Below are positions 12,233 through 14,412 of a stretch of DNA of 46,317 bases, piece by piece (positions within the stretch are counted from its first letter, which is position 1; each line of letters starts with the position of its first letter). The notes below the pieces were generated by a model. It searched no databases, was not told the origin of the DNA, and saw only the letters and a list, made by a program, of their open reading frames with translations. Source of the DNA: Patescibacteria group bacterium (lineage in GTDB: Bacteria > Patescibacteriota > Patescibacteriia > Patescibacteriales > UBA12465); NCBI GenBank assembly GCA_022710685.1, contig JAKLGM010000005.1:1-46317 (forward strand), written 5' to 3'. Position numbers and translations under genes: made by a program.

Positions 12233-13264
12233 CTAATAATTAAGTTGGTAGTAGGTCGCTCGGCCGTGGCCGACTCTTTTGATTTCCCCCGCTTCTACTA
12301 ATCTTTTAAGGTCTAAACTCCTAGTGGCTCTCGCCCTGTCGGTAATCTTGGCATATTCTTTGTCGCTAATACTGCCATTTTCTTTTACATACCAGATAAT
12401 TTTATTCTGGTATTCAGAAATAGATTTTTTAGAAAGATTAGTTTCTAGTTCCAATTCTTTTTTTACCCTCAGCAACTCGTCGATGATTCCGTCGGTAAAA
12501 TATTCCAACCATTCGGTGAAGTCAATGTCATTTTGGAAGTCATAGTAATTTCCCATAACCCCGACTTGTTGGAAGTAACGGCCGACATTTTTGTTATAAT
12601 AATTTTCAAAGCTAAAGAGATTGAACGTATTTAACCCCATCTTGGCCAGTAGAGCTTTAGTACCAAGACGCGCTGTCCGACCGTTGCCATCAATGAAGGG
12701 ATGGATTATCACAAATTGCTTATGAAAGATCCCGGCTAATATTAATGGATCAATTTTGCCTTCGTTTTGTTTTATATATTTTAGCAACTCCGTTAGCATG
12801 TCTGGCACGTCGTCGTGGTTCGGCGGCAGGTAAATTGTTCGGCTGGTCCGAGGATCATTTACAAACACCGGTTCTTTCCTTATCCGGCCGCAACGGTATT
12901 TGTCTATTAGACTCTGGGTAATTGATTTTTGGATTTTTAATAGCAAAGATAAATCAAAGTCGTATTTTTTTTCTTTGATATACTCGTTCAATTCTGACAG
13001 CGCTTTATTGTAGTTCAATATTTCCTTCTCGCTGTCGCGGATATATTCCGGTTTGGTCTTTAATATCTGCCGGACTTCAGTCAGCGGCAGGGGATTACCT
13101 TCAATGCTGACCGAGGAATAGGTTGAAATTTCTCTAGCTTTCTTCTCAAATTCGGCTAAGACTACAAAAGAAAAGCGACGGCTATTTAATTCAGTCGTGA
13201 TTTCTGCCACCTTCTTTATGTTGGCTAATAGTTTATTGGAAATATTGTATTTTGGCGCAAACAT
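12233..13264 (-). CDS. Fic/DOC-family protein (AMPylase-type) with winged-helix C-terminus
   Basis: The protein has 343 residues. The Fic core motif HPFIDGNGRTAR is at residues 188-199 and matches the full HPFx(D/N)GNGRxxR consensus, so catalysis (usually AMP transfer to a hydroxyl side chain) should be possible. An upstream helix, SVSIEGN (residues 51-57, Glu55), fits the (S/T)xxxE(G/N) inhibitory motif of class II Fic proteins, which blocks ATP binding in cis. The last ~65 residues (NKIIWYVKENGSISDKEYAK...RSLDLKRLVEAG) read as a winged helix, so the protein may bind DNA, possibly at the repeats in its own promoter. No antitoxin-like partner gene is adjacent. Target unknown. Confidence 0.9.
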   Translation of the reverse strand: MFAPKYNISNKLLANIKKVAEITTELNSRRFSFVVLAEFEKKAREISTYSSVSIEGNPLPLTEVRQILKTKPEYIRDSEKEILNYNKALSELNEYIKEKKYDFDLSLLLKIQKSITQSLIDKYRCGRIRKEPVFVNDPRTSRTIYLPPNHDDVPDMLTELLKYIKQNEGKIDPLILAGIFHKQFVIIHPFIDGNGRTARLGTKALLAKMGLNTFNLFSFENYYNKNVGRYFQQVGVMGNYYDFQNDIDFTEWLEYFTDGIIDELLRVKKELELETNLSKKSISEYQNKIIWYVKENGSISDKEYAKITDRARATRSLDLKRLVEAGEIKRVGHGRATYYQLNY

Positions 13265-13290: not shown

Positions 13291-13319
13291 ATTATAGACA
13301 AAAAATAGACAATTGTCAA
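13291..13319 (-). promoter_or_regulatory. Consensus promoter of fic with embedded operator
   Basis: Reading the minus strand, TTGACA, exactly 17 bases and TATAAT form a perfect consensus promoter 27 bases upstream of the fic ATG. A 10-bp palindrome, GACAATTGTC (13308-13317), overlaps the -35 box, and GTCTA copies sit in the spacer and against the -10 box. This arrangement suggests a tightly repressed strong promoter. Confidence 0.8.
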
Positions 13320-13400
13320 TGGCTTCATTATTTATATTATTGGCTAATATTAAATAAATAATATATAATAATATAGACAATTATTAGACAATTTGTAGAC
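13295..13400. repeat. Two clusters of TAGAC repeats spaced 11 bp
   Basis: TAGAC occurs at 13295 and 13306 (11 bp apart) and again at 13374, 13385 and 13396 (11 bp apart each), four of the five followed by AA. An 11-bp step places the copies on about the same helix face, as in phased operator arrays or iterons. The first cluster lies inside the fic promoter. Confidence 0.75.
13340..13369 (+). promoter_or_regulatory. Weak candidate plus-strand promoter in the fic control region
   Basis: TTGGCT, 18 bases and TATAAT point toward the TAGAC triplet and the terminator at 13461. No coding frame follows, so if active it would give an RNA of only about 110 nt. Confidence 0.25.
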
Positions 13401-13415
13401 GATTTTTTGGAAGTG

Positions 13416-13459
13416 AAACTTTATAAGGTTTGCTAATTTGCCCAAACTTTATAAAGTTT
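13416..13459. repeat. Pair of 16-bp palindromes (AAACTTTATAARGTTT)
   Basis: The copy at 13444-13459 is a perfect palindrome. The copy at 13416-13431 differs at one base. Centres are 28 bp apart. The outer arms can also pair as one long hairpin. The pair sits between the fic control region and the aldolase terminator. Confidence 0.7.
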
Positions 13460-13460
13460 C

Positions 13461-13487
13461 AAAAAACAGGCCTGGGGCCTGTTTTTT
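13461..13487. terminator. Terminator after the aldolase gene
   Basis: A perfect 12-bp stem (AAAAAACAGGCC / GGCCTGTTTTTT) with a 3-base loop has T-runs on both strands. It mainly serves the minus-strand aldolase gene ending at 13507. Confidence 0.85.
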
Positions 13488-13506: not shown

Positions 13507-14412
13507 TTATTTTTCCATTATCTTCAAGGTTTTGGCTAGTGGATAATCGTGGTAGATGATGCCGGCGATAGCTTTAGCTAATTTGACCGCTTCTTTCAGC
13601 GGATATTGGTGGAGATTGCGGCCGATAGCGTTGCCATTGGTGTGGGCAATATGGATTTGTTGATCGATATTCGTTAATAGTTCTTTCGGCGATAGTTTGG
13701 AGCCGCCGACTGAAATTATTTTTGTCCGGCCGGCCGCAGCGACTACTTTCCGAAATTCTTTGGCGGTAGCCTCTTGGCCGGTATAGGGATATTTTACCTT
13801 GACGAAGTCGGCGCCCAAGCAGGCAGCGACGCCCGCGCCGCCAGCGATAATATTAATATCATCTTCGTTGGGAACATTTTTGCCTCGAGGATACATCCAG
13901 ATAATCGCAACTAAGCCATTTTGGTGCGCGTCTTTGATAATCTGGGCAGCTTCGCGCAGTATTTCTGATTCATATTCACCGCCGAGATAGACGGTATAGC
14001 CTACGCCCACGATATTCAAGCGGCTTTGTTTTTTAAATTTAGCCACGTCATTGACGCTATACCAGCTATAACTGATGGGATCATGGTCTTTGATTGAGAC
14101 TAAGTTACTCTTAGAGTTGATTTTTACCACATAGGGGACTTGTTTGTAATCTCGGCCGTATTTATCTATCAGTCCTAGTTGGGTGGCAAAAGCTCCGATT
14201 TCCGCCTGGCTGGCGATTTTGAATAAATGTTCCGGGTCCTGGTCTTCGGCATCAATGTCGGGACCGGAAAAATCAGAGTTGAGATGCTCTACTTTTTGGT
14301 CGCCGGCAAAAAGAAAAAGCCGGCCCGTGTCCTTGGTTATTAGGCGGTAATTCTTGATATATTCTTTGGCGCTCGCCGCCGGAACGGTCAGAGGAGTGTC
14401 GATTTTCAGCAT
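13507..14412 (-). CDS. Class I fructose-bisphosphate aldolase, archaeal/DhnA type
   Basis: The protein has 301 residues with the DeoC/FbaB/DhnA TIM-barrel signature. It has FLFAGDQKVEHLN near the N-terminus, IWMYPRG in the middle, ADFVKVKYPY with the likely Schiff-base Lys205, then KIISVGGSK and GNAIGRN, which bind the phosphate group. It would cleave fructose 1,6-bisphosphate to dihydroxyacetone phosphate and glyceraldehyde 3-phosphate. This metal-independent aldolase type is common in archaea and in Patescibacteria. GAPDH at 40136 uses one of its products. It shares a symmetrical divergent promoter with the gene at 14456. Confidence 0.88.
   Translation of the reverse strand: MLKIDTPLTVPAASAKEYIKNYRLITKDTGRLFLFAGDQKVEHLNSDFSGPDIDAEDQDPEHLFKIASQAEIGAFATQLGLIDKYGRDYKQVPYVVKINSKSNLVSIKDHDPISYSWYSVNDVAKFKKQSRLNIVGVGYTVYLGGEYESEILREAAQIIKDAHQNGLVAIIWMYPRGKNVPNEDDINIIAGGAGVAACLGADFVKVKYPYTGQEATAKEFRKVVAAAGRTKIISVGGSKLSPKELLTNIDQQIHIAHTNGNAIGRNLHQYPLKEAVKLAKAIAGIIYHDYPLAKTLKIMEK

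Follow-up and report, generated by a model that had tools for sequence, protein, structure and literature searches.

A putative direct-repeat operator in the promoter of a patescibacterial gene encoding a Fic–winged-helix protein

The promoter of a fic gene in a Patescibacteria group bacterium is interleaved with 7-bp direct repeats set 11 bp apart, and we propose, at a probability of about 0.83, that these repeats serve as operator to a self-contained gene whose product would read them through its own C-terminal winged helix-turn-helix (wHTH) and so repress its own promoter. The proposal comes from comparison of sequences: the repeats recur upstream of orthologous fic genes, and the recognition helix covaries with them, which lends strong support to the autoregulation of Fic that an initial annotation of this DNA had suggested. 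Few of the widespread Fic enzymes have been characterised, and for the helix-turn-helix at the end of many of them a purpose is seldom known; to our knowledge, regulation in Patescibacteria is almost unstudied. Coordinates below are those of the window, that is, the whole stretch of 46,317 nucleotides that was analysed.

The fic gene, its promoter and the repeats

The features of the locus and of the encoded protein are as follows.

12233-13264, minus strand: fic gene, 343 aa (Pfam Fic, E 1.3e-17)
Residues S51 to G56 of the protein: inhibitory-type motif S51-VSI-E55-G56, pattern (S/T)xxxE(G/N), N-terminal to the Fic motif
Residues 188-199: Fic motif HPFIDGNGRTAR, fitting HxFx[D/E]GN[G/K]RxxR
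Residues about 283-343: C-terminal wHTH in the AlphaFold models
12281-12331, minus strand: codons 312-328, recognition helix and the turn following it (helix 312-324 in the model, with S316 inside it)
13290-13284, minus strand: candidate operator copy R3, ATAGCTA, degenerate here, over the predicted transcription start
13296-13291, minus strand: -10 box TATAAT, 17-bp spacer to the -35 box
13301-13295, minus strand: candidate operator copy R2, TTGTCTA, overlapping the first two bases of the -10 box
13312-13306, minus strand: candidate operator copy R1, TTGTCTA, inside the promoter spacer
13308-13317: dyad GACAATTGTC, the -35 hexamer adjoining R1; as a dyad not conserved
13319-13314, minus strand: -35 box TTGACA, 12/12 consensus together with the -10 box
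13374-13402, minus strand: distal array of three copies (TTGTCTA 13374-13380, TTGTCTA 13385-13391, TCGTCTA 13396-13402)
13466-13482: stem-loop ACAGGCC-CCA-GGCCTGT, then a T run at 13465-13461 (minus strand), read directly from the sequence
13507-14412, minus strand: upstream DeoC-family gene

Fic is the sole Pfam family above cut-off in the protein. The AlphaFold2 models (single chains without DNA; pLDDT 84 for the whole protein and 88 for the C-terminal domain alone) match solved Fic structures and display a Fic domain together with a canonical winged helix, bearing out the winged-helix C-terminus named in the initial annotation. The shape of this wHTH resembles MarR/ArsR-type domains and the DIP2311 C-terminal domain; since a Foldseek search with the wHTH alone retrieved nothing at E < 0.001 (best 2.3e-3), the domain is placed by fold type, as MarR/ArsR-like, and not by family. 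The C-terminal 79 residues have a weak likeness to DIP2311-like_C/DeoR-type HTH domains, and Trans_reg_C is not among the matches listed. S51, E55 and G56 are invariant across 45 orthologs. The protein is predicted to be a class II AMPylator, its AMPylation activity and toxicity being what we infer from the family. Plasmid relatives are all below 60% identity (22-30% among the matches listed).

The stem-loop with its T run, which is missing from the scan listing, likely represents a terminator isolating fic from the upstream DeoC-family gene. The downstream neighbor is convergent, and no flanking gene, partner or antitoxin is conserved among the ortholog loci, the commonest families being found in 3/36 of them. 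On account of these three features the gene looks monocistronic.

The fic promoter on the minus strand is a perfect sigma-70-type promoter, as the initial annotation had stated (TTGACA, 17 bp, TATAAT; 12/12 match), and GTCTA copies do lie in its spacer and -10 box at the positions given there. The five TAGAC words of the plus strand (GTCTA on the minus strand) start at 13295 and 13306, and at 13374, 13385 and 13396, in steps of 11 bp inside each group. The positions and phasing originally reported thus hold; however, the repeat unit is in fact 7 bp long, T[C/T]G[T/A]CTA, running head to tail every 11 bp with GTCTA as its core, and there is an extra degenerate copy, R3. The two groups themselves lie 68 bp apart, a distance that is not a multiple of 11. 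When the 242-bp intergenic region was shuffled with dinucleotides preserved, three 11-bp-phased pairs appeared in 0/20,000 shuffles and a single phased pair in one of 20,000, so the arrangement is not due to chance. The TTGTCTA of the window is an uncommon spelling among the orthologs, with C changed to T at base 2. The distal array carries a 5/6 match to the -10 consensus and a poor -35; an exact second array was found nowhere else among the loci scanned, and the one in the window may serve in added cooperative binding or be a decayed duplicate of the promoter-operator.

Two AAACTTTATAAAGTTT-type palindromes (13416-13431 and 13444-13459, 28 bp apart) lie between fic and the putative terminator of the DeoC-family gene, and are the only sites of this type in the 886-kb genome. 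In a sister genome (L087), palindromes of the same type stand 29 bp apart over the promoter of a different Fic class, marked by an XRE-like HTH at the N-terminus, and L091 has one clear copy; the pair near fic is possibly the remnant operator of a lost XRE-Fic gene.

The repeats and the recognition helix in fic orthologs

We drew orthologs from a contig search, from the family of the window gene itself and from 380 genomes of the phylum, 29 of which (the window's own counted) have fic at E < 1e-60. After removal of near-copies there remained 85 non-redundant orthologs at 48-67% identity, comprising Patescibacteria plus records labelled as other phyla. The initial annotation had set the presence of the repeats upstream of related fic genes as a check, and they are indeed there: the module TTGACA-w-T[C]G[T/A]CTA-4-T[C]G[T/A]CTA-TAAT-..-YGWCTA has a match in 85/85, scoring 26-37 of 37 vs at most 27 in 1188 control windows from the same loci. 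R1 and R2 are both within one mismatch of TYGWCTA in 77/85 orthologs, and R3 is within one mismatch in 55/85 and within two in 78/85. Word matches collected without an imposed spacing fall at distances of 11 and 22 bp, plus a series at 7, 18 and 29 bp that stems from the -35 sequence, since TTGACAA differs from the word at a single position. The word is near-invariant apart from base 4, and positions outside the sigma-70 elements are nearly invariant too; unlike the spacer word, the UTR and the far-upstream sequence vary. Some orthologs have a weak -35 (TTGTAA, TTGCAA), and many, including that of the window, have a perfect -35/-10 pair.

The conserved protein start lies at most 2 nt from the end of the 37-base module in 44/85 orthologs, so that an mRNA starting ~7 nt past the -10 box would be leaderless or nearly so; in many orthologs the ATG directly follows R3 (e.g., L022, L035, L064, L102). 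The fic leader of the window genome is about 20 nt. Two Microgenomates loci (L018, L021) have a 55-76-nt leader, with the shared sequence ..TTTGTAGC..GCTACAAAGAGCGCTT..GCGGGCAC.. between operator and ATG, and a similar, weaker leader sequence is seen in L036 and L038. Rfam matches in the window, L021, L022 and L038 are tRNA only, with none to the leader element in L021 or L038.

Most orthologs have T at base 4 of the word and about a quarter have A, or in rare cases G; the class of this base is equal in R1 and R2 in 81/85. This base tracks residue 316 of the protein (Ser in the window), which sits in the modelled recognition helix adjoining the invariant T314 and R315. At R1, base 4 is T or C in 64/64 orthologs that have Ala, Asn or Ser at 316, and A or G in 20/21 of those that have Thr, Ile or Arg; the classes of residue and base agree in 84/85 orthologs for R1 and 82/85 for R2, and R3 follows the rule weakly (61/85). 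The exception is L144, where Ile accompanies GTC/GGC words, and L017 and L123 have mixed operator copies. Residue 316 tops the 343 protein columns in excess mutual information with base 4, both for R1 (0.65; next 0.34) and for R2 (0.60; next column 0.28). Neutral simulations on a tree from which the wHTH was left out reached the observed phi of 0.97 (R1) and 0.91 (R2) in 0/5000 runs (largest values 0.67 and 0.73), the simulated column having been chosen because it stood out and the residue grouping having been set after the table was viewed. The class of residue 316 changes at least 8 times on this tree; because the strongly supported branches hold only 2 of the switches, the case for phylogenetic independence leans in part on branches that are not resolved, and an independent-pairs test on supported branches gives 2 pairs, both in the expected direction and too few for significance. 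That base 4 tracks the recognition helix of the Fic protein itself points to a functional link between protein and operator.

Predicted autorepression and its alternatives

In the mechanism that we envisage, the recognition helix would read T[C/T]G[T/A]CTA, with one Fic protomer per helical turn on one face of the DNA. As two or three copies 11 bp apart thread through the spacer, the -10 box and the start, protomers ranged side by side and head to tail would cover the promoter and keep RNA polymerase off it, and this negative feedback would hold a potentially toxic enzyme at a low level. Repression might be relieved as the protein is diluted or lost, or as it changes conformation upon nucleotide binding or self-AMPylation. 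The physical binding, the head-to-tail arrangement and the repression are inferred from the layout of the site and the covariation, with repression favored over activation because of where the operator lies in the promoter. The Fic protein might instead bind the repeats yet activate, or mainly poise, its promoter: the weak -35 of some orthologs could need help, and the distal array of the window is placed where activators can bind. We consider this improbable, given that R1-R3 occupy the spacer, the -10 box and the start, which polymerase needs free, that many orthologs have the perfect -35/-10 pair, and that CccR (YPK_0951) of Yersinia pseudotuberculosis, the studied relative in kind, is a Fic-HTH protein which binds and represses its own promoter via the HTH (PMC9755527).

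Slightly less probable still is control of fic in trans, by a separate unlinked transcription factor reading the repeats. The Fic protein is a predicted binder, and repressors of defence genes that act on direct repeats and are encoded elsewhere in the locus do exist, as with RptR (PMC12255303). Against this, base 4 follows Fic's own recognition helix; no conserved neighbor could supply another regulator, which backs autoregulation; and the site is present almost only at fic, so that the factor would have to be a one-gene regulator that nevertheless tracks residue 316 of Fic. The pair TCGWCTA-N4-TCGWCTA occurs in 21/380 phylum genomes and stands upstream of this fic in 17/21, and GTCTA-N6-GTCTA has 4 sites in the 886-kb genome of the window, 3 of them in the fic upstream region.

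A larger regulon was considered and rejected: the exact pair lies away from this fic in only 4/21 genomes (L103, L104, L111, L117), with no fic within 1.6 kb downstream of it in these four. One of them (L104, G131:C25) has an orphan TTGCAAATCGTCTAAAAATCGTCTA, a -35-like hexamer plus two copies with no -10; fic is absent from its 3-kb locus, and the orphan site is a possible relic of a lost fic.

That the repeats are merely inherited or shared promoter sequence, copied horizontally with fic and devoid of an operator role, strikes us as very unlikely. The gene and its promoter do seem to move as a unit, judging from differing neighbors and from records labelled as different phyla, but at 48-67% protein identity an unconstrained spacer should diverge, as the UTR and the far-upstream sequence did, whereas the spacer word is nearly invariant; moreover, R1 and R2 change jointly, and a covariation of base with residue needs a functional link. 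We give equally little credence to the palindrome GACAATTGTC as the true operator of a Fic dimer with the direct repeats secondary, for although dyads bound by dimers are usual for wHTH repressors, and the dyad which the initial annotation had pointed out at the -35 is present at 13308-13317 and in 35/85 orthologs, it arises because TTGACA abuts GTCTA, is broken in most orthologs, and disappears with a TCGACTA word or with a -35 of TTGTAA or TTGCAA while the direct repeats stay.

Relation to known operators and wider significance

We found no published description of this fic operator in the literature searched. To that extent the initial remark that no operator of this form had been described stands, qualified by the fact that autorepression by CccR (PMC9755527) and a 7+4 site layout for PhoP (PMC4832192) are both published. 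CccR, like the present protein, has an N-terminal Fic domain with a class II inhibitory motif and a C-terminal HTH; it binds its own promoter near the -35 and -10 and represses it, as is predicted here. Its footprinted sites are palindromes separated by 26 bp, to which a dimer binds back to back (PMC9755527), and are known from one organism, in contrast to the non-palindromic 7-bp words 11 bp apart that are seen here in scores of species; palindromes with the ~26-bp spacing of CccR were not found, the only dyad being the one that is not conserved. Also in distinction from CccR, nothing here implies that this Fic protein is secreted or acts in other cells.

The site itself has the layout of OmpR/PhoB-type sites, with T[CT]G[TA]CTA followed by 4 AT-rich bases at a period of 11, a likeness that concerns the sites only. 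Thus, PhoP of Mycobacterium tuberculosis binds a 7-bp direct repeat with a 4-bp spacer as cooperative wHTH tandems, the recognition helix entering the major groove of the 7-bp motif (PMC4832192). PhoP is a response regulator that has a receiver domain and controls a many-gene regulon, as against a Fic domain and apparently one target here, and the combination of OmpR/PhoB receiver domain and Trans_reg_C is absent from the Fic protein. Cooperative binding to promoter direct repeats is likewise described for BldC (PMC5859096), which is MerR-like, has no second domain and is not a Fic enzyme. RptR represses via three promoter direct repeats that overlap the -10 and are conserved with the regulator, but each repeat holds a palindrome, TAGCTA, read by a homodimer, and RptR is not a Fic enzyme (PMC12255303). 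SoFic (NCBIfam NF046030; PADLOC SoFic) shares with the present protein a Fic domain and a C-terminal wHTH; the PADLOC SoFic profile matches residues 50-340 (E 6e-45), and the score against the SoFic equivalog NF046030 is 68.2 bits, below the curated cut-off of 550 bits. Fic-HTH autorepression as such is known from CccR, and what would set the present system apart is the direct-repeat operator with its apparent one-residue, one-base switch.

The SoFic-like class in sister genomes also has direct repeats, but with a different word and period: at L158-L167 repeats of ~10 bp lie over the -10, the words varying from one subgroup to another (L163/L164 have CTGCTAT three times, L159 has CATATAATC, and ATAATTGGA is seen as well), and these look like the same operator principle at another period. 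Distant Fic genes on viral contigs (~30% identity) have 11-bp direct repeats, with CGGCAAT in L169/L170 and a TATCGGCGGTT-type word in L172; both these and the SoFic-like repeats were read by eye in few sequences. Other Fic classes in these genomes have palindromes over their promoters. In the window genome, the two remaining Fic genes that are HTH-like, L097 (G000:C31:9620) and L154 (G000:C8:5588), have long inverted repeats over their promoters (AGAGCTTAATATGGTAT..ATACCATATTAAGCTCT; AGGTATAATT..AATTATACCT). The word of the present fic, looked for at the paralogous Fic genes L081-L098, is absent from them, other repeats or palindromes being found there instead. Plausibly, self-control is common among Fic genes that bear an HTH, each class using a word of its own. 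More tentatively, and with the odds in our estimation somewhat against it, there might be a whole branch of Fic-wHTH enzymes that bind in head-to-tail rows to direct repeats one turn apart in their own promoters, using class-specific words, and whose specificity would evolve in matched steps (residue 316 with base 4), which would insulate each fic from its paralogs and make it transplantable between phyla as a self-limiting unit.

The findings would give a whole Fic family a named target sequence, together with a predicted one-to-one contact of amino acid and base; this pairing of residue 316 and base 4 opens the function of the wHTH to direct test. The 85 matched pairs of protein and operator offer a natural series for the evolution of regulator specificity. 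Finally, autorepression of this kind would explain the persistence and spread among Patescibacteria of a fic gene that stands alone, is possibly toxic and has no antitoxin.
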